Origin: a virus
Direction: 5' to 3' (one strand)
Length of the DNA stretch: 21,721 bases
IMG/VR virus record: IMGVR_UViG_3300025769_000976
Span: 1-21,721 of that record
The notes beneath the pieces were generated by a model. That model made no database searches, had not been told where the DNA came from, and saw only the letters and a program-made list of their open reading frames with translations. The position numbers and the translations under genes were made by a program. How positions within the stretch are numbered: position 1 is the stretch's first letter; each line of letters starts with the position of its first letter. Below, piece by piece: positions 7,453-21,395 of this stretch.

Positions 7453-10389
7453 TTATTTAATAACTAAGTACAGGTATTCGCCATTAAGAGCATTATATGA
7501 CGTATCTGTTGTTATAATTTCGAAAGAATTAGAGTTAAAATTAGCTGCACTAAATGTGCCTTCTAGATTTGCTAAATTTGGATATAATTCTTTATCTCTA
7601 GGATTACTTGTAGACCTTGTGTTGTCTAATATTCTCCAATTAGCCGAGGCATCAACTCTTTTTATTAATAACCAGCCTGGCTCAAATCCATTTGCTCCAC
7701 CTGATGTTCCATCATCTGTGGTATATATAGTGTTACTTGTTGTATTATTACCTGTATATACTCCTATTTTTTGGTAACCTGAAATTGAATGCCAACAATA
7801 GGCTATATAGTTATCTCCATTTTTGTTTGTTGCATCTTTTGTTCCTACTGTAAAAACACTTGCTGTTGGCGCAGTATCATCCCATGGTGCTGAATCTACA
7901 TCAAAATCATTTGGGGCATTTAAAGAAGCTTTTTTTGTAGCACCTACAGCTGTACTTAAAACCATCCAATTATCTATAGTATCTAAGGTTTTTGTAAAAA
8001 TTAGTTCCGGCGCTGCACTTAATCCGTGTCCAATTGTTGCAGATGAACCTGTTCCTTTATATTTTACGATAGAAAATCCAGCGTTTGTATGAGGTTGAAC
8101 TATACTTTGAGAAGTTCCATTATTATTTATAGAACCAATACTTGAGCTACCCCAACTCCAAGCTACATAAGTTCTGCCACTTGTATTAACTTCACCTCCA
8201 CCACCTGCTCCGTCTAAAATAAAACCATTATTAAATAAAGAAACAAAACCGTTTAAAGATGTACTTGCTGCCGCTGTACTATCGGATGATATTCTACTTG
8301 GCTCACCTCTAACAGAATCGTGTAACTCGTGACTTGTTGGGTTACTTCTTGATTTTATCCAAACCAATGAAGGATTTTTGCTTGTTCCTTCATAGTAAGT
8401 AATATTAGTTTCCGATGAAGCATTATAGTTTCCACTTAAATCATTAGCGTTTGTGTCAAACGTATATGCGGCAAAACATCCAGCTCCTGTAGGGAAGTTT
8501 AATGTATTTGCAGTTGAAGATGTTTCATTATAAAGTTCACTAACCTGTGATGCTGTTAAAACAGTATCAAAAAATCTAAACTGGTCTATACTACCTGTAA
8601 GTTCAAAGCCTGATGATAGTGAATATGTGCCAATTGTAACACCATTAGAATTTGATGATACCGTTCCTGAACCTGTTCCTGTATCACAAAGAATGCCGTT
8701 GTAATAAATTTTTGCTTCAAAAGTAGAAGGATTAAAAGTCACTGTACAGTGCTCCCATGTAAGCTCATTATTAGCTATAGCTCCTGTTCTTACATCTACA
8801 TTTGTATTGCTTGTATTATGCATCTGAAAAACAAAACCAGCTGATGCTGATTGCCATTCTAGTTGCCAACCATACGCACCTGAACCCCCATTACCTTTAT
8901 CCGCAATAAAAGTTCGATTGGTATTTTGTCTAAAAACCCAAAGGCTAATACTTAAATCACTTGTTCCATTAAAATTAGTTGAATTAGGCAACACTATACT
9001 TCCGTTACCTGCCATCACAGCTGCGCCATTTAAATGCCCTCCTATTGTTTGTGAACCTCCAGTGCCAGTATATAAGTTTGTTTTAAAACTGTTTGCTAGA
9101 GTAGGTGTTGTTGATGTGGGGTCAGATGCTATTGCATAATATAAATATGTTCCACCATTAGAATTATAATCTCCTGCGGTAGATTTTATTTCAAATCCAT
9201 TACTTAAAAAAACAATGTCCACATAATCAGTTTGCTCTGCCGCAGAATCATTAGCTTCTAGGACATCTTTACCAAATCCTAGTGATACTCTTTTATTGTC
9301 TTGAATCCTCCATCCGCCTGCGCTATCACTTCTTTTAATCATTAACCAAGCAGGTTGAAACCCTGTGGTAACAATAGGTCCTGCTGTACTTCCATTACCT
9401 ACATATGCACCCACTTTTGAATAACCTGCAACAGAATGAAAACAATATGATACTACATTATTTGTTCCACCGCCTGCATATAAATGTGATGTAAAGGTAG
9501 TATTAGTTACAGAAGAAAAATTATATGTATTATTTGTGGCTACTGAATTGTTTAAATTTAGATATACATATTGTGTATTTGGCAAGGATAAACCATCGTG
9601 ATATACATACCAATTATCAGCAGTATCCAAATTTTTCCATATAATCATTTCAGGAGCTTCACTTAATCCATGACCTACATTAATACTTGTATTGGTTATA
9701 GGAAACTTAACAATAGAAAATCCAGCTCCTTCATTAGCTCTTACTGTGCTTGCAGTAGTTCCTTGATTATTTGTAACTTCTGTAGCAGAGGCTTTGAAGC
9801 ACCAACCAACATAGGCGTAAGGCGCTCTATTGGTAGCTCCATTATTATTCACAGTAAAACCATCTGTATCAAAAGAAGTAAATCCCTCATAAGGCGCTGT
9901 GTTGGTGACTTCGGCTGTAGTAGAATTAGCTTCTAGTTGTTTATTAACACCTCTTATACTATCATACAATGCGTGTGATTCAGCAGGTGAACTTCTTTCG
10001 GCAGTAGTAGAATTAGCTTCTAGTTGTTTATTAACACCTCTTATACTATCATACAATGCGTGTGATTCAGCAGGTGAACTTCTCCTTTTTATCCATACTA
10101 AATCAGGTTGAAAACCTACTCCTGTTATTGCGTGTGATGCATCAGTACCAGCCCACAAAACAGTATTAAAATTTTCTGATGCAATAGGCGAACCCCCTTC
10201 ATCATCTATTTGATACCAATTACTTCCATCATAAAACTCTACCTTATTATCGTCTGTATTATATCTAAAATCACCAGCATTTAAGTTTGTAGATGGTCGT
10301 TGAGCAGTAGTGCCACTAGGCAAACGTACTCCTGATGTTGTAGATTCAAACTCAAATAATTCTGGTGTTGCTATTTTTGTTGTTGCCAT
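7453..10389 (-). CDS. Large tail fibre/adhesin with LamG-type domain
   Basis: Predicted 978-aa virion fibre. The N-terminus (1-62) contains GTTAQRPS and RYNTDDNKVEFYDGSNW, a short module also seen in two neighbouring proteins. Then come three repeat-like modules: A (about 90-200, GFQPDLVWIK to YVGWCFKA), B (222-335, GFSIVKF to HGLSEAPEMIIWK and YCFHSVAGY) and C (337-424, GFQPAWLMIKR to YLYYAIA). A LamG/ConA-like sandwich follows (about 440-645: LSISLWVFRQ, KIYYNGILCDTG, GSIDQFRFFDTVL). A second, diverged A'-B'-C' set covers 668-978. This architecture is common in marine phage fibres and implies host glycan binding. Residues 103-131 and 132-160 are identical because of an 87-bp tandem repeat, possibly an assembly artefact. 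The A' module has only one copy. Confidence 0.85.
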   Translation of the reverse strand: MATTKIATPELFEFESTTSGVRLPSGTTAQRPSTNLNAGDFRYNTDDNKVEFYDGSNWYQIDDEGGSPIASENFNTVLWAGTDASHAITGVGFQPDLVWIKRRSSPAESHALYDSIRGVNKQLEANSTTAERSSPAESHALYDSIRGVNKQLEANSTTAEVTNTAPYEGFTSFDTDGFTVNNNGATNRAPYAYVGWCFKASATEVTNNQGTTASTVRANEGAGFSIVKFPITNTSINVGHGLSEAPEMIIWKNLDTADNWYVYHDGLSLPNTQYVYLNLNNSVATNNTYNFSSVTNTTFTSHLYAGGGTNNVVSYCFHSVAGYSKVGAYVGNGSTAGPIVTTGFQPAWLMIKRSDSAGGWRIQDNKRVSLGFGKDVLEANDSAAEQTDYVDIVFLSNGFEIKSTAGDYNSNGGTYLYYAIASDPTSTTPTLANSFKTNLYTGTGGSQTIGGHLNGAAVMAGNGSIVLPNSTNFNGTSDLSISLWVFRQNTNRTFIADKGNGGSGAYGWQLEWQSASAGFVFQMHNTSNTNVDVRTGAIANNELTWEHCTVTFNPSTFEAKIYYNGILCDTGTGSGTVSSNSNGVTIGTYSLSSGFELTGSIDQFRFFDTVLTASQVSELYNETSSTANTLNFPTGAGCFAAYTFDTNANDLSGNYNASSETNITYYEGTSKNPSLVWIKSRSNPTSHELHDSVRGEPSRISSDSTAAASTSLNGFVSLFNNGFILDGAGGGGEVNTSGRTYVAWSWGSSSIGSINNNGTSQSIVQPHTNAGFSIVKYKGTGSSATIGHGLSAAPELIFTKTLDTIDNWMVLSTAVGATKKASLNAPNDFDVDSAPWDDTAPTASVFTVGTKDATNKNGDNYIAYCWHSISGYQKIGVYTGNNTTSNTIYTTDDGTSGGANGFEPGWLLIKRVDASANWRILDNTRSTSNPRDKELYPNLANLEGTFSAANFNSNSFEIITTDTSYNALNGEYLYLVIK
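9910..10083 (-). repeat. 87-bp in-frame tandem duplication in the fibre gene
   Basis: Copies at 9910-9996 and 9997-10083 match at 86 of 87 bases. The single difference (9916 t, 10003 a) is the third base of a Thr codon, so the two 29-residue copies are identical. The unit does not coincide with a domain. Either recent slippage or a mis-joined strain variant could explain it. Confidence 0.95.
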
Positions 10390-10399
10390 AATTTATATT

Positions 10400-11389
10400 T
10401 TATAATCCGTAAGTAGCTTTAAAATAGTCATGAACTGTTTGTATTTCTGAATCACTTTTTAATTCGTTTTGCCAATAATTTATATCTCCATAATACATAC
10501 CACCATAATTGTAATTAGGATAATAAGAAATGCCAAACCCTAAAGCATTAGATGACTGTCCCCATGTAGCGCTATAAGAATACCTCCAAATAAGGCTACC
10601 GTTTTTATATAATTTAAAATAAGATATACCTCCTGAGTTATATTCATGAGTTAATCCTACTCCTGTCCATGTAGGATAAGGAAGTCCAAATTGAGCTGTT
10701 TCAGTTGTTGTGCTTGTAACTATATTACTTAATGATGAATCATAAGCGTGAGCATAAATATAATATTGATAAGTTAATCCTATTCTCCAAACAACATGAG
10801 TAAGAGTATTACCATAATCCGTATTGCTTGAACCAGTGCTGTTGCCAATTTGAAAAAGTAGCGGATATTCATAATTAGAAGTATAACTAGAATCTGCTGC
10901 CATAAATCCATACCATGAGAAATTTTCTTGCGTAGGATATATTGAATATTTATTAAGACCTGTAGTTCCACTAGGATTCATAGCAAACCCTTGATTCCCT
11001 GAACCAAAAGTAGCTTTAGCGCATTTAGCTCCAGCTAATGTATCCACAGATATTGATCCGCTATTACCATAAGGTGTAGCTACATGACTATTTGAGCCAC
11101 TATTAGTCCATTCAGATATAGTTCCGCTTGAAGGCAGCTCGTCAGGATTTAAATATATTGATGCGTTAAAAGGATTACTACTTGATAGATTAGCAAAATT
11201 TTTCCACTCTGTGCCATTATAAAATTGCATCGTAGATGCAGAATTATTAGATGATTGAGAGGTGTCATTACGAAGCATACCTTCAGTAGCTGTTCCACTA
11301 AAAGCTCCGCCACTTGGCATTTTTAATGACTTTGTTGTGTCAGCTTTATTTAAAGAGGTTACCTCTGGTATTATTTTAGTTGTTGCCAT
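10400..11389 (-). CDS. Tail-fibre-associated ConA/LamG-like protein
   Basis: Predicted 329-aa protein. It shares the N-terminal opening MATTKI with the 978-aa fibre. The segment RNDTSQSSNNSAS-TMQFYNGTEWKNF (about 40-67) is the same attachment-like module found in the other two fibre proteins. The remainder is Ser/Thr/Tyr/Gly-rich and beta-predicted. Its end (GISYFKLYKNGSLIWRYS, then GDINYWQNELKSDSEIQTVH) resembles the closing strands of LamG/ConA-like lectin sandwiches, with an ending typical of 'ALSDSEI..L...' tails. It probably binds carbohydrate or caps a fibre. It sits ten bases upstream of the large fibre gene. The domain call is by pattern only. Confidence 0.65.
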   Translation of the reverse strand: MATTKIIPEVTSLNKADTTKSLKMPSGGAFSGTATEGMLRNDTSQSSNNSASTMQFYNGTEWKNFANLSSSNPFNASIYLNPDELPSSGTISEWTNSGSNSHVATPYGNSGSISVDTLAGAKCAKATFGSGNQGFAMNPSGTTGLNKYSIYPTQENFSWYGFMAADSSYTSNYEYPLLFQIGNSTGSSNTDYGNTLTHVVWRIGLTYQYYIYAHAYDSSLSNIVTSTTTETAQFGLPYPTWTGVGLTHEYNSGGISYFKLYKNGSLIWRYSYSATWGQSSNALGFGISYYPNYNYGGMYYGDINYWQNELKSDSEIQTVHDYFKATYGL

Positions 11390-11395
11390 AATATT

Positions 11396-12493
11396 TTACC
11401 TTGTTCTTGAATCCCACTTTTGTTCTTCTTCGTTCCAACTCCAATATAATTCATCATAATCTTCAGGATAATCTATTGGAGGATTCCACACGCCTGTTGT
11501 TGTGTCCCATACCCAACTCGGATATGGCTGATTATTATCAGGATTTATATATACATAATCCACCCATTCTGTTGTATCTTCTTTCCAATAATGCTGACCT
11601 TCAGGTTTAGGGGTTGGCGGCTGCCATATACAAGTTTCTTCATCAAGAGTCCAACTTGGATAAGGTTGTTCTGCATAAAATGCATCTCTTACAGGGTCGT
11701 ATATATTTCCGTTGCTTGCATAATTTTTTCTTATATTTCCGTTATAAGATGTTCTTTTAACTCCATAAAAACCTTCCCAATATATAGTATTGTCATAATC
11801 TTCTTTAGGAATATTATTTTTTTCATCTAGCTTTGTTTGTATCTGAGCCTGTATAGCTTCTACTTCAGCCATCCATACCTCTTCGTCTTGGGTATAATCA
11901 ATATCTTTTTTACTTTCTTCAAGAGCTTTAATTTCCGCATCTATAGAGGAAGTGTCTCCGCTTCTTGTTTCCAATTCATCACGACCCACAACTACATTAG
12001 TTACTCTACAAAGTGCATTAGCTATTGTAGTTTCTAATGTGTTTTTTTCTGCAATTAAATCTTCCGTATTGTTATACTCAAGCTCGTGTAGCTGGTCTTT
12101 TATTTCTGTTATATCCTCTGCTAGCCTTTCTTTTTCTGTATTTACTTCCTCTTCCTTTGCAATGTATTCTTGAGAACCAATAGGGTGTATAGCTGCTAGC
12201 TCAGCTTCTAAAGTTTTTAATGTATCACTTGTAGATTTAGGATAATATAATTCGTTTATTGTATCACTAATTTCTTTTGATGTTAAGTCATGCCCTTCAT
12301 CAAAATTATTATCAAAAGCATTTTTTATATCTTCATTTGTAACTGTAGGATATAATGTTGAATATAAAAGCTGATAACCTTCTGAATCAATATTATCTTG
12401 TCTAATAACATTTATTTCGTTTTCTATTTGATAAAGCCTAGCTCTTTCTGTAATTGTAAACTCTTCGTTTGATATGTATGCGTAATGTGCCAT
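11396..12493 (-). CDS. Virion protein with coiled coils and W-rich C-terminal repeats
   Basis: Predicted 365-aa protein. The C-terminal third (about 239-299) carries YWEGFYGVKRTSYNGN, KNYASNG, YDPVRDAFYAEQPYPSWTLD and TCIW, a module I recall from many marine phage structural proteins. Two related W-rich repeats follow (QPYPSW...CIWQPP and QPYPSW...GVWNPP, with YW...W after each). In simpler relatives the start MAHYAYI runs almost directly into VTxVxVGRDE and then the TSYNG module. Here MAHYAYI (1-7), VTNVVVGRDE (164-173) and YWEGFYGV (238-245) are separated by about 155 and 65 residues of acidic coiled coil. The function is unknown; a tail-fibre or baseplate component is likely from context. 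Confidence 0.65.
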   Translation of the reverse strand: MAHYAYISNEEFTITERARLYQIENEINVIRQDNIDSEGYQLLYSTLYPTVTNEDIKNAFDNNFDEGHDLTSKEISDTINELYYPKSTSDTLKTLEAELAAIHPIGSQEYIAKEEEVNTEKERLAEDITEIKDQLHELEYNNTEDLIAEKNTLETTIANALCRVTNVVVGRDELETRSGDTSSIDAEIKALEESKKDIDYTQDEEVWMAEVEAIQAQIQTKLDEKNNIPKEDYDNTIYWEGFYGVKRTSYNGNIRKNYASNGNIYDPVRDAFYAEQPYPSWTLDEETCIWQPPTPKPEGQHYWKEDTTEWVDYVYINPDNNQPYPSWVWDTTTGVWNPPIDYPEDYDELYWSWNEEEQKWDSRTR

Positions 12494-12494
12494 A

Positions 12495-14414
12495 TTAGAA
12501 TGTTACTGTATCTGATGCGCCTGCCGCTGTTATTGAATATACATAATCTCCACCGTCTGCTACACCATTAATTGTACCTCCTCCAGATGTTCCATTGCAA
12601 GTTACACCTGAAGTAAATGTGGCTGATGATACAGGTATTCTTAGAATAACAATGCCTGAGCCTCCAGCGCCTCCAGCTGTATCAGCTGCACCGCCGCCAC
12701 CGCCGCCACCAGTGTTTGCCCCACCAGCTATTGGGGCTGTATTATTGCCTTCAGCTCCTGCGCCGCCGCCGCCATCCCCACCAGGGATAACCGTATAACC
12801 AGCAGAAACTCCTCCTGAACCGCCGCCTGCATATGTGACAGCAGAACCAGTTATTGAATTAGACTGACCATCTCCACCATGACCTGTTCCATCAGTATTA
12901 CCAGCTTCTCCTGCGCCGCCGCCGCCACCACCTGGGTAACTACCACTAGCTTGTCCAGCACCACCTGCGAATCCCTCTACAGGAGTAAAACTTCCTGAAT
13001 TACCAGACCCACCTGAAGTATCATAAGCTCCACCTCCTCCAGAACCTCCAGAACCTCCAGCAGTGCCTTGTCCACCACCAAGTCCGCCGCCTGTAGAAGT
13101 TATTGTATTAAAAACAGAATTACTACCTGGGTTTCCATTATTATACACAGGATTAGATGCTCCTCCAGCACCAACTGTTACAGTGTACGCAATGCCTTGA
13201 GATGCTGTAAATGCAGTACCACCATAATTTGTTCTATAGCCTCCTGCTCCGCCGCCACCTGAATTGGAATTAGATCCTCCTGAACCTCCACCCGCAACTA
13301 CTAAATAATATAAATCATAATTTGGAATTACAGCGTTTTCTTTTAAGTTTCTCCATTCTGTTCCGTTGTATACTTCTGTTCTATCAGTCTCGGTATTTAC
13401 TCTTAAATCTCCTGATGCTGGTGAGCCTGACCTTTGAGCTGTTGTTCCTTTTGCCCATATAAGTCCTCCAGCGTTTCCACTCATGTCAATATTGTCTGTT
13501 GTTACTTGCGTAATATTTGGTGGTAAAGGAAAATTAATAGTTTCTGATGTCGTAGTAGTGGCTGTTATTATATACACATAATCTGAGCCAACAGATACTC
13601 CTGCTATATCACCGCCACCTGATGTTCCGTTACAAGTTACTCCGCTAGAAAATGATGCTGTTGCTACGCTAGTTCTAAGTATGACTACACCTGAACCTCC
13701 TGTAGCATTATATCCTCCAGCTCCTCCGCCTGTATTTGCCGTTCCATTATTAGTGCCACTAGCCACAGCTCCGTTGCCGCCGCCTCCTGTACCTCCAACA
13801 CCGCCGCCTGTAGTGGAAGCAGAACCGCCGCCGCCGCCTGCAAAATAAACATCACTGCCGTCTACTTCTCCTACCGAGTATGTAGAAGATAATGTTGTTG
13901 TAATTATATTTACTGCTAATCCTGTACCTCCATTTGCTCCTGGCTGGTTCAAACCTGCCGCCGCAGTGCTTCCTGCTACTGCTGCTCCTCCGCCACCACC
14001 AGCAGGATAAGAACCACTGCCAACAGTCGACGAAGATGTACCGCCAGCAAAACCTTGATTAACTGTTCCTGCTGCTCCTGCATTACCATATTGTCCCCCA
14101 GAGCCACCTCCTCCAGAACCACCGACTCCTGCGGTGTAGCTGTTAGCTGTTCCTGAACCTGTTCCTCCTCCATCAGAAGTAATAGTTGAAAATACTGAAT
14201 TGTCTCCATTTGTAGCAGCTGGTCCACCAGCACCCACAGTTACTGTATATGCCGTTCCTTCGTTAAGTGTTAATGATGATTCAGCAGATGAGCCTCCTCC
14301 TGAATTAGAGCCGTAAGATGTTCTTAGTCCTCCTGCGCCTCCTCCTCCTGGAGAGTCCGCAGCAGTTCCCCCTCCTCCAGCTACAACAAGAAAATCAACA
14401 GTTATACTTGCCAT
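12495..14414 (-). CDS. Glycine-rich double-module adhesin
   Basis: Predicted 639-aa protein with two homologous polyglycine-rich modules. Module 1 (about 8-286) and module 2 (about 368-630) each start FLVVAGGGG/YLVVAGGGS, contain AYTVTVGAGG and many GGGG runs, and end GSGVVILR/GSGIVILR, a Ser/Thr stretch, SGVTCNGTSGGG and a DYVY...ITA strand. Between them (321-357) lies the linker GTTAQRSGSPASGDLRVN followed by TEVYNGTEW, shared with the neighbouring fibres. Gly-rich lattices of this sort form polyglycine-II sandwiches in T-even adhesins (S16 gp38), where exposed loops bind the receptor; that analogy is structural inference. Gly codons (GGC/GGT) give unusually GC-rich triplet runs in an AT-rich genome. 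Confidence 0.75.
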   Translation of the reverse strand: MASITVDFLVVAGGGGTAADSPGGGGAGGLRTSYGSNSGGGSSAESSLTLNEGTAYTVTVGAGGPAATNGDNSVFSTITSDGGGTGSGTANSYTAGVGGSGGGGSGGQYGNAGAAGTVNQGFAGGTSSSTVGSGSYPAGGGGGAAVAGSTAAAGLNQPGANGGTGLAVNIITTTLSSTYSVGEVDGSDVYFAGGGGGSASTTGGGVGGTGGGGNGAVASGTNNGTANTGGGAGGYNATGGSGVVILRTSVATASFSSGVTCNGTSGGGDIAGVSVGSDYVYIITATTTTSETINFPLPPNITQVTTDNIDMSGNAGGLIWAKGTTAQRSGSPASGDLRVNTETDRTEVYNGTEWRNLKENAVIPNYDLYYLVVAGGGSGGSNSNSGGGGAGGYRTNYGGTAFTASQGIAYTVTVGAGGASNPVYNNGNPGSNSVFNTITSTGGGLGGGQGTAGGSGGSGGGGAYDTSGGSGNSGSFTPVEGFAGGAGQASGSYPGGGGGGAGEAGNTDGTGHGGDGQSNSITGSAVTYAGGGSGGVSAGYTVIPGGDGGGGAGAEGNNTAPIAGGANTGGGGGGGAADTAGGAGGSGIVILRIPVSSATFTSGVTCNGTSGGGTINGVADGGDYVYSITAAGASDTVTF

Positions 14415-14423
14415 GCTTTAAAA

Positions 14424-15809
14424 TTAAGTTGTTGTTACTGCCTCTACTGTAGAGCCGTTAGGGAAATTACCAGCCGCAAGGGTTAGTGTTTTACCTGACA
14501 GGGCGCTGAAATTTGCTTTTGCTTGATATACACCGTTTATGTATACATCTATATAATCTTTGCTTGTTGGATCAGTTGCAGAAGTAACTGTTATACTATT
14601 GGTGCTAGCATTACTTATGGTAAAAGAGTCTACGGTTTTAGTTACACCTGCTCCACCACCGTATGTAATATTACCACCCATGCCTGAATGGATAGAACAA
14701 TAATAATATAGTGTAGGTGAATTTTGTGTAATTCTCAACCTTACTCTTCTAGTAGCGTAGCTATTGAAGTTTGTTGTGTTGGAATAATCTGCTTGTGATA
14801 CAGCGGTAAGCGTGTTAGCAGATGTGCTTCCATAATATTGTATTCCTGTTGCGTATGGCGTACTTCCATCTAATACTTCACCAATTTCTAATGGATGGCC
14901 ATCGTTTGTCGCTGCATCTTGATTAAATTCATATGTAAAACCAGGGGTAAGATTTATAGATGCTTGGTAAGCTCCGTCTATATATAGTTGATTTCCTGAT
15001 CCTGGATTGACAACAGTAACTGTCATCTCTGATGCTTGGTCTAAAAGCAGTTGATCAGTTGCCGTTCCTGTGGTTATTACACCGCCTCCTACTTGCACGC
15101 TGTTTACTACGACAGTAGTATTTTCTTTTATTGTTGCGGTATTTCCTACAGATATTGCTTGGTTTGTTCCTTGGTCACCTGCTAGTGTCCAAATATCACC
15201 AGACACATTGATTGTAACAGTATCAGTGGCAGTAACCGCAGTTGTAACATTAGTGCCTCCTGCAAATGTTATTGTGTCTCCGCTGTTGACAGTTTCGGTT
15301 CCAGTATCACCTGATATGTCGAAAGATGTAAATCCTCCAGCCGGTGTAGCCCATGTACCATCTCCACGAAGAAAGGTTGTGCCCGATCCTCCTGTTGGCA
15401 CGTGTCCCACATTTGTTGTTCCTGCATAAGCCATAGATTGTACAAGAACAGTACCCGTAGTTGGATTGACTACTATTGGTGTTCCGCTTGATGTTCCAGG
15501 TGTTGTCTCGTCTACAGATGTTACTGCTCCTATGGCAGCAATCGTTATCTCATCAGTACCTGCCGTTAGAGTTACACCTGAGCCAGCAGTAAACTGCAAA
15601 ACCTCTGTTGTCGAGGAAGAGCCTGTTTTAGTTCCCGTAAGGGTTAGGTCTACGTTACTACCGTCTTGAGTCGTAGCAAAAGAATATGTTGTATCTAAGT
15701 TTGCAGGTGGTATCTGTACATTTATATTACCACTTGCTGTGTAACCTACTATCCTAGTTATATTAGAGGCTACCGTTTCTTCCGTGAATTGTGAAAATTT
15801 TACTGCCAT
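14424..15809 (-). CDS. Tail/fibre protein with embedded cupredoxin-like domain
   Basis: Predicted 461-aa protein. The N-terminal part (1-250) is Thr/Val/Gly-rich beta repeats typical of tail fibres, including RGDGTWATP (148-156). Residues about 260-390 resemble a blue-copper (cupredoxin) domain. NPGSGNQLYIDG, an early His305 in NDGHPLEIGE, and YYYCSIHSGMGGNI supply Cys371, His374 and Met377. The C-x2-H-x2-M spacing equals that of amicyanin, so a full type-1 copper ligand set is present. A final beta segment (about 391-461) includes DVYINGVYQAK, which echoes LYIDGAYQAS at 275-284. Copper binding is untested; the fold may only be used as a stable spacer. The ATG lies four bases after the stop of the upstream 46-aa gene. 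Confidence 0.7.
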   Translation of the reverse strand: MAVKFSQFTEETVASNITRIVGYTASGNINVQIPPANLDTTYSFATTQDGSNVDLTLTGTKTGSSSTTEVLQFTAGSGVTLTAGTDEITIAAIGAVTSVDETTPGTSSGTPIVVNPTTGTVLVQSMAYAGTTNVGHVPTGGSGTTFLRGDGTWATPAGGFTSFDISGDTGTETVNSGDTITFAGGTNVTTAVTATDTVTINVSGDIWTLAGDQGTNQAISVGNTATIKENTTVVVNSVQVGGGVITTGTATDQLLLDQASEMTVTVVNPGSGNQLYIDGAYQASINLTPGFTYEFNQDAATNDGHPLEIGEVLDGSTPYATGIQYYGSTSANTLTAVSQADYSNTTNFNSYATRRVRLRITQNSPTLYYYCSIHSGMGGNITYGGGAGVTKTVDSFTISNASTNSITVTSATDPTSKDYIDVYINGVYQAKANFSALSGKTLTLAAGNFPNGSTVEAVTTT

Positions 15810-19432: not shown

Positions 19433-19652
19433 TAAAGGGCTCATCATGGATCATCATCGTATAACCCGCTCTTTTGTCGTAGTATATCTCGCTATCTTTC
19501 TCGATAGCTACAACGTCAGTGCCTATTGCAACAATCCTGCCCTTCTTATACCTAAGCTGATTAGCATCTTCATCAGAAAGTAATAATCCCGATGAGGTTT
19601 TTATCTTCTCGTTTATTTCTTTTATAACAACGTACTTACCTATTGGTTTCAT
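19395..19652 (-). CDS. groES: Co-chaperonin GroES (Cpn10)
   Basis: Predicted 85-aa phage GroES, the heptameric lid of the GroEL chamber. The start MKPIGKYVVIKEI is the first strand. NEKIKTSSGLLLSDEDANQL corresponds to the flexible loop that docks on GroEL. GRIVAIGTD follows, as in GroES VLAVGNG. The C-terminus PFTIIRENDIVLVL matches the last strand. It is slightly shorter than the ~95-aa host protein, mainly in the roof loop region. The ATG overlaps the groEL stop by four bases, so the pair is translationally coupled, with groEL first, the reverse of the usual bacterial groES-groEL order. Confidence 0.85.
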   Translation of the reverse strand: MKPIGKYVVIKEINEKIKTSSGLLLSDEDANQLRYKKGRIVAIGTDVVAIEKDSEIYYDKRAGYTMMIHDEPFTIIRENDIVLVL

Positions 19653-21395
19653 TTCGCGTCGTAACTTCTAGCCATAGTTATAATAGCGTTAGTAGATAAT
19701 ATTGTTGTGGCTACTGACACTGCATTAGTCAGTGCTTCTTTGGTAACCTTTAGCGGATCAATAATTCCCATTTTGATCATGTCTCCTCTTTTTTTGGTCT
19801 TCACGTTGCATCCCTCCCATACTTTGTTCTCGGTGTCCCAGCTGACATACTTATGCTGCTTGTCTCTCGCTATGCCTGCATTACTCAAAATCGTATTACT
19901 AGGCTCATGTAAAACATCTAATAAAACTGCGATAGCAGTTTTTCGCGATTTTGAATTGCTAGTTAGGTATGATTTGTTAAGCATATCGGTACACATCAGA
20001 TAGGCAACCCCACCTCCAGGAAGTATCCCTTCTTCCAAGGCAGAGCGTACCGCACATACCGCATCATCAACACGGTCATACAGCTCCTTCTGCTCTAGGT
20101 CTGTGTTACCTCCCACGTATATTACACCAATCCCCCCAGTAAGTGAGGCAATACGTTGTTTTATAAATTCTTTATCGGCTTTTGATTTAGTTATCTTATG
20201 CTGCTCCCATAACTGGTCTACTCGTTCTTTTACTTTGTCATCGTTATCTATCTCAGAGTCTTTGACTATCACCGTCTCATCTTTGGATACGATTATTTTC
20301 TTTGCCTTACCCAAATCCTCAAAAGTAATTGTCATCGTTATCTATCTCAGAGTCTTTGACTATCACCGTCTCATCTTTGGATACGATTATTTTCTTTGCC
20401 TTGCCTAAATCCTCAAAAGTAATTAGGCTCAGGTCATCGCCTGTACTCTCCGAAAAATAAGTAGCACCAACTGACAAAGCTATATCGTTCATCAGCTCTT
20501 GTTGTTTGTAACCAAAATTGGGAGGAATGATAGTACAAAGTTTCAAGTTGTTTTTCATAACGTTAGCGGCTAAAGTATTGATAACGTTTTGTGAACAAGG
20601 TGCTATGATAAGCAGTTTTTTGTTCTGGTTTATTATAGGCTTTAGAATGGTCTCGATAGATAATATATTATTTATCTCTGCATCACATACAAGCACGTGC
20701 ACATCATCGAGTATACACTGGTCTTTCTTCTGATCGTTTATAAACAAATGCGAAGAATATCCCCGGTCTACTTTTATCCCTTGCGTAGTCTGCGAGTAGG
20801 TCTTACTATCATCGCTCTTCTCAATGGTTACTATACCATCTTTACCGACAGCCTTATATGTATCGGCGATTATCTTCCCTAGCTCTTTGTCATTGTTGCA
20901 TGATATGGTTGCCACATCTAGCAGCTTCTCATCATCCACCTGAACCGCTATATTAGAAAGCTCATTTATGATTATATCTTTCACTGCATTTATCTCACGT
21001 ATCACTTCTGTCTTGTCAGACACGTTCTGTACTTGTCCGCGCATAGGATCAAACTCCTTTATCGCATTAAGCACTATAGCCTCAGTAAGAACTATTGATG
21101 TGGTAGTGCCATCACCTGCATGGGTGGCCGTCCTCTCTGCCGCCTCTTTCATCATACGCACCGCAAGGTTCTCTACCGGGTCCAACAAAGATATACTCTT
21201 GGCTACAGTAACCCCATCCTTGGTAACAGTGATACCTTTCAAATGCTCCTGCGATTCTATCAGCACCGTCTCGCCTAGCGGACCTAAGGTCGACTTAACA
21301 CAACGTGCTATCTTTTTAATTCCTGAGATAAGTTTCTCTCTGGCCTCTTTGTCAAAATGTAATTCTTTAGGTGAATATCCTCCCGATGTATTCAT
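19649..21395 (-). pseudogene. groEL: Chaperonin GroEL, interrupted by a 94-bp duplication
   Basis: Phage-encoded chaperonin. The 5' frame (20319-21395, 358 aa) carries the equatorial ATPase residues in TKDGVTVAK (Asp60) and AGDGTTTS (Asp95) and most of the apical domain. The 3' frame (19649-20335, 228 aa) carries GGIGVIYVGG, DRVDDAV (the D398 equivalent), EEGILPGGGVAY and MGIIDPLKVTKEALTNAVSVA. A 94-bp tandem duplication near the apical end shifts the frame. Removing one copy leaves exactly 551 codons in one frame, a 550-aa protein close to the usual 548. The C-terminus lacks the GGM tail. The break may be an assembly artefact, in which case the gene is intact in the phage. It forms an operon with groES, with a TAnnTTTG element 31 bases upstream. 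Confidence 0.88.
20237..20424 (-). repeat. 94-bp tandem duplication inside groEL
   Basis: Copies at 20237-20330 and 20331-20424 match at 92 of 94 bases. The differences (20309/20403 a/g and 20312/20406 c/t) are third-codon changes in Gly and Leu codons, so both copies encode the same residues. Ninety-four is not a multiple of three, hence the frameshift and the premature end DNDDNYF. Confidence 0.97.

Follow-up and report, generated by a model that had tools for sequence, protein, structure and literature searches.

A cupredoxin-like domain with a putative type-1 copper ligand set in a phage tail-fibre-type protein

The window analysed here, 21,721 nucleotides long, is the entire 21.7-kb IMG/VR virus record IMGVR_UViG_3300025769_000976, which belongs to an uncultured aquatic phage, and carries a tail-fibre-type gene, whose product is called P0001, next to a block of further fibre-type genes (Table 1). 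The original prediction had drawn attention to this open reading frame as encoding four residues arranged as the ligands of a type-1 copper site, His305, Cys371, His374 and Met377; the reading frame and the four positions proved exact, and the strand, absent from that prediction, is the minus strand. Terminase and portal place the virus close to Flavobacterium (elemo) and Cellulophaga podoviruses, an affinity that makes a Bacteroidota host likely. The closest named record, MW202828 (Manatee Spring; terminase 74%), has the backbone from groEL to portal in common with the window and no counterpart of the fibre block containing the P0001 gene; the block behaves as an exchanged cassette.

Two tandem duplications were seen outside the P0001 gene. 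A 94-nt duplication (positions 20235–20422, copies 98% identical) lies within groEL and shifts the frame, so that the gene is split into the open reading frames 20319–21395 and 19649–20335. The repeat is present as a single copy in a near-identical virus (L001), so the duplication either arose as an artefact of assembly or is very recent. The other, of 87 nt and in frame (positions 9910–10083, 99% identical), is found in the fibre open reading frame 7453–10389; it is also single-copy in L001 and is possibly an artefact.

Table 1. Positions in the window of the P0001 gene, its segments, the putative ligand codons and the adjoining genes.
Feature	Position	Strand	Basis or remark
Tail-fibre-type gene P0001, 461 aa + stop	14424..15809	minus	Single uninterrupted ORF
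N-terminal fibre part of P0001, residues 1–255	15045..15809	minus	Full-length model unreliable, pLDDT 49.5
Cupredoxin-like domain, residues 256–396 as modelled, ordered to ~385	14622..15044	minus	AlphaFold2, Foldseek, VIA
His305 codon, first putative metal ligand, motif GHPL	14895..14897	minus	112/112 Cys-bearing dereplicated homologues
Cys371 codon, sole Cys of the protein	14697..14699	minus	112/122 family Cys in this column
His374 codon	14688..14690	minus	112/112 Cys-bearing homologues
Met377 codon, putative axial ligand	14679..14681	minus	Met 110/112, Gln 2/112
DUF4183-like C-terminal segment of P0001, residues 385–448	14466..14657	minus	PF13799 E 2.3e-5
Adjoining fibre-type genes 12495–14414, 11396–12493, 10400–11389, 7453–10389	7453..14414	minus	Pfam Gly_rich_2, DUF7483, Laminin_G_3; PHROG tail/virion families

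P0001 is probably a virion fibre protein, as suggested by the PHROG tail families that it matches and by its position within the fibre-like gene block. The whole protein matched PHROG 677, annotated as 'baseplate wedge tail fiber protein connector' (E 1.6e-7), and the domain alone matched the baseplate wedge subunit PHROG 708 (3.2e-10), while a phmmer search of P0001 against the PDB gave no match. The match of the C-terminal segment to PF13799 (24.5 bits) falls slightly below the gathering score of 25.1. Residues ~407–439, within this segment, also resemble the first strands of the cupredoxin-like domain, of which the window holds a single example of this type. Nine full-length relatives were found in IMG/VR, 48–98% identical to P0001 and alignable over the whole protein.

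The last three putative ligands form a C-x2-H-x2-M loop in LYYYCSIHSGMGG. His305, Cys371 and His374 are kept in 9/9 full-length relatives, one of which (L011) has Gln in place of Met377 (CAVHGIGQGG), and another (L002) a loop longer by one residue (CSVHGAGMGG). Apart from Cys371, the residues able to take part in such a site are scarce in the protein, with three His (136, 305 and 374) and four Met (1, 126, 262 and 377). A chance origin of the motif was rejected, as C..H..M appeared in 11 of 200,000 shuffles of P0001, 4 of them also with a His 40–90 residues upstream. Two other roles were considered for these residues and discarded: a disulphide for Cys371, given that there is no second Cys, and an HxH iron site, since the three His include no His-x-His.

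The domain (residues 256–396) was modelled by AlphaFold2 with a 78-sequence alignment, yielding a β-sandwich built from nine strands, with a pair of short helices (pLDDT 88.1, pTM 0.82), with block means of at least 91 for most of model residues 21–120. In a Foldseek comparison with the PDB the nine best matches were rusticyanin (top, E 6e-5) and the copper nitrite reductase CuNIR; multicopper oxidases came next, with AcoP, itself a cupredoxin. One of the matches is a pseudoazurin bearing an engineered amicyanin loop. Alignment of the model with VIA gave Z values of 8.9 for CuNIR (2dv6, 104 residues, 3.3 Å), 8.7 for laccase and 8.5 for rusticyanin (3.1 Å), which are moderate, and a fold in common does not demonstrate function. 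Residues ~256–385 of P0001 are thus predicted to be a cupredoxin-fold domain, with the Greek-key β-sandwich. A cupredoxin at about residues 260–390 had been anticipated from the letters of the sequence; the profile matches and the model place it at nearly the same limits, and the structure prediction proposed as a check returned a cupredoxin-like fold (pLDDT 88) with copper proteins as matches. Structural matches to the model were also seen in BFVD among 'beta-sandwich proteins' of Pithovirus and Marseillevirus (E ~2e-6).

At the sequence level the relation to copper proteins is more distant. Neither P0001 nor its domain matched PF00127 (Copper-bind), and P0001 did not match the amicyanin model TIGR02657; as it lies below the Pfam and NCBIfam cut-offs, the domain was filed as cupredoxin-like and not as a PF00127 member. 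Among 78 relatives, 12 match TIGR02657 weakly (best 8e-5; one of them at 13.8 bits against a cut-off of 110.2) and 10 match PF00127 (best 8e-4). The best matches of the family profile in the PDB were mostly blue copper proteins (CuNIR 9e-4, plastocyanin 0.018, rusticyanin 0.06), and hhalign of the family with PF00127 proteins from 23 loci gave a p value of 4.9e-5 and a probability of 68%, all four ligand columns (H, C, H, M) being aligned without forcing. The family shows the type-1 ligand order His...Cys..His..Met/Gln at equivalent positions. The resemblance to amicyanin that had been proposed holds for the loop, since the C-x2-H-x2-M spacing is present in 176/180 family loops, that of the window among them. 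It does not extend further: the fold and the G-H-P-(F/L) motif are nearer to rusticyanin and multicopper-oxidase domains, and the first His is followed by Pro in 109/112 Cys-bearing domains, not by the Asn/Ser of the small blue copper proteins.

Whether the four residues behave as a unit could be read from the wider family, recruited with a profile masked at the ligand columns and then with a profile of the part preceding the first His only. With this N-terminal part alone, 180 domains had the first His and the loop, 13 had neither, three had the His only and none the loop only. In a dereplicated set of 127 domains, 112 had the Cys, a share of ligand-bearing domains that is inflated by the recruitment of some homologues through ligand-containing patterns; both His were present in all 112, with Met in 110 and Gln in 2 at the axial position. 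Cys is otherwise nearly absent, 112 of the 122 Cys across the 127 domains falling in the ligand column. Most of the other ligands are also gone from the 15 domains without Cys. The covariation that the original prediction had set as its own test is therefore seen, the first His being lost with the loop in 13 cases against three in which it was kept, and never by itself.

Among the 15 Cys-less domains are the PSS2-type protein, the second copies of Syn1 and S-H9-1, a first copy in P-HM1 gp7, and a protein that many Synechococcus myoviruses encode between gp9 and gp8. The site is still present in two relatives at this last position, L270 and L276, the former reading HPFEI...YYQCTAHGAM with a loop end MGN. 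In the stand-alone proteins of ~112 aa (Cyanophage PSS2 and relatives; L249–L252 and L073, 4992–5330) the first His, the Cys and the second His are lost, and the ligand-free 112-aa protein of PSS2 superposes on the domain model with an rmsd of 1.5 and a TM of 0.88. Once the Cys is lost, Met persists in some PSS2-type domains and the first His in three others. Ligand-free sister domains retain the fold-level signal, and so the ligands are dispensable for the fold; a fold that survives without them, together with the lack of piecemeal loss while the Cys stays, is what one would expect to see for a metal site. On the tree there are 4 site changes, 2 of them forced by supported branches, too few for significance by independent pairs. 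The putative metal site thus appears, on this comparative evidence, to be under joint selection, with few independent losses.

The ligand-free versions, found in phage baseplate proteins and as the stand-alone protein of PSS2, are also what would be expected if the domain were purely an adhesion or decoration fold, in which the four residues were inherited and kept for packing and no metal is bound in nature. Many phage Ig-like domains only decorate, and fibres fold in a copper-poor cytoplasm. However, residues kept for packing only should be lost singly, yet every Cys-bearing domain has both His, and in a family almost devoid of other Cys this reading leaves a lone exposed Cys without other evident use. 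We consider it improbable.

The domain is a mobile virion module of host-facing tail proteins in many phages, with hundreds of cultured ocean phages among them. It was found in at least 10 PHROG structural families, mostly annotated as tail fibre, baseplate wedge or gp9, and in fibres of pelagiphages. In the phage collection, 349 records have the gp9-type domain, almost all of them from Synechococcus and Prochlorococcus phages, and 255 records have another type, pelagiphages and Methylophilales phages included. In cyanophage gp9 it is C-terminal, after T4_gp9_10_N (for example in L284), and in PSS2 it forms by itself a protein of 112–113 aa. The proposal of a ligand site in a virion fibre protein agrees with the PHROG tail families and the fibre-like neighbours, but the site is not the oddity of one fibre. 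Outside phages, the domain was found in large surface proteins of Bacteroidota, in 11/100 genomes from one family (L282, L283, L288 and L323–L330); these proteins match the phage domain family (E 6e-20), and two of them, L282 and L283, exceed the PF00127 cut-off (25.0 and 24.2 vs 21.2 bits). They are possibly a source or a sink of the phage module. No relatives of the domain were found on plasmids. In six of the loci a second, more divergent structural-protein domain was observed in other genes, with the pattern HP(I/F)...(S/A)YYC/YAC..HGYMGG. In a search confined to the open literature, no description of a cupredoxin domain in virions was found, which does not establish novelty.

The placement of the domain at the host-facing end, both in fibres and in their connector gp9, together with the swapping of its fibre cassette with respect to a syntenic relative, in the manner of host-range modules, would also suit a bait of copper (or of a copper complex): outer-membrane copper-handling or TonB-dependent receptors of the host would recognise the loaded site as a copper 'Trojan horse'. 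Iron-binding HxH fibres and the iron form of this idea have been published for T4, lambda, cyanophages and alterophages (PMC11705849). Against a copper bait, the domain is shared by phages whose hosts are cyanobacteria, SAR11, OM43 and probably Bacteroidota, for which one common copper receptor is unlikely, and homology makes gp9 a connector rather than a tip. We regard the bait as unlikely, and rank it second, after a metal-stabilised host-facing domain and before the metal-free decoration discussed above.

The preferred reading, to which we would assign a probability of about 0.6, is that the P0001 domain is a genuine cupredoxin fold with an intact mononuclear type-1-like site, carried close to the C-terminus of the fibre as a mobile module and serving a metal-stabilised, host-facing role. 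The site would bind a soft metal, most likely copper. Type-1-like sites have a very high affinity for copper. Since the cytoplasm in which phage proteins are synthesised and fibres fold contains almost no copper, the site probably stays empty or binds zinc there, and filling with copper would probably take place after lysis. At one end of the sandwich, the bound metal would link the strand that bears the His with the C/H/M loop; the filled site would shield the lone Cys and stiffen the attachment surface, without any need for electron transfer.

Zinc is more available than copper in the cytoplasm during assembly, and type-1 sites also take Zn, Hg and other metals. A purely structural site occupied in nature by zinc or by opportunistic soft metals would fit these properties, but two His together with Cys and Met/Gln, set in a rigid scaffold of the cupredoxin kind, make a copper-type set, Met is rare in zinc sites, and the Met-to-Gln swap, seen twice, is the one made by nature in the copper stellacyanins; another metal therefore seems a quite improbable occupant. 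Still less credible is a redox role, in which the site would act at adsorption as a switch or an electron-transfer centre and sense the conditions of host or light. Type-1 centres do transfer electrons, and the envelopes of cyanobacterial hosts are redox-active, but no partner redox protein or domain is present in the window and phages of heterotrophs carry the domain as well.

A broader extension of the metal-stabilised reading is put forward only tentatively, and we think it rather doubtful: marine phage particles might be copper metalloproteins, with type-1 sites in gp9 and fibres that would be filled in seawater and required for the tail to be stable or for adsorption, so that a virion copper pool would be coupled to infection. 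If the sites were filled, picocyanobacterial myoviruses whose gp9 has the domain, among the most abundant cultured ocean phages, would carry copper to the cell surface, the iron-fibre idea would be extended to a second metal, and seawater copper chemistry would be linked to phage stability and adsorption. Filled sites would also provide a stable blue chromophore for following tail assembly. These proposals are directly testable, since some cultured phages have intact sites and, in the same genomes, domains that are naturally free of the ligands.

Among known systems, rusticyanin, the cupredoxin domain of CuNIR and laccase domain 3 have in common with the phage domain the β-sandwich and the ligand order H...C..H..M, at 11–19% identity; GHSF/YYYVC of rusticyanin aligns with GHPL/YYYC of the phage domain, and laccases and other multicopper oxidases have HP at the type-1 His. 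In contrast, the loop of rusticyanin and laccase is C-x4-H-x4-M, longer than the C-x2-H-x2-M of the phage domain, and these three proteins are enzymes or electron carriers and not virion components. Amicyanin and plastocyanin have the same ligand set, the loop spacing being of the amicyanin type, but they are small and secreted, whereas the phage domain is embedded in a large fibre, has a long insert between the first His and the Cys, and has Pro in place of Asn after the first His. The C-terminal domain of cyanophage gp9 (PHROG 677) is of the same kind, with an intact HPF...C..H..M; unlike gp9, P0001 has no T4_gp9_10_N, and its genome is podovirus-like and related to Flavobacterium and Cellulophaga phages. 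The HxH fibres (T4 gp37, alterophage R22Y; PMC11705849) likewise have a metal site, proposed or shown, that is discussed for marine metal cycling. That site is octahedral, with six His around iron in a trimeric needle, while the site of P0001 would be mononuclear, formed by Cys/His/His/Met within a cupredoxin sandwich.
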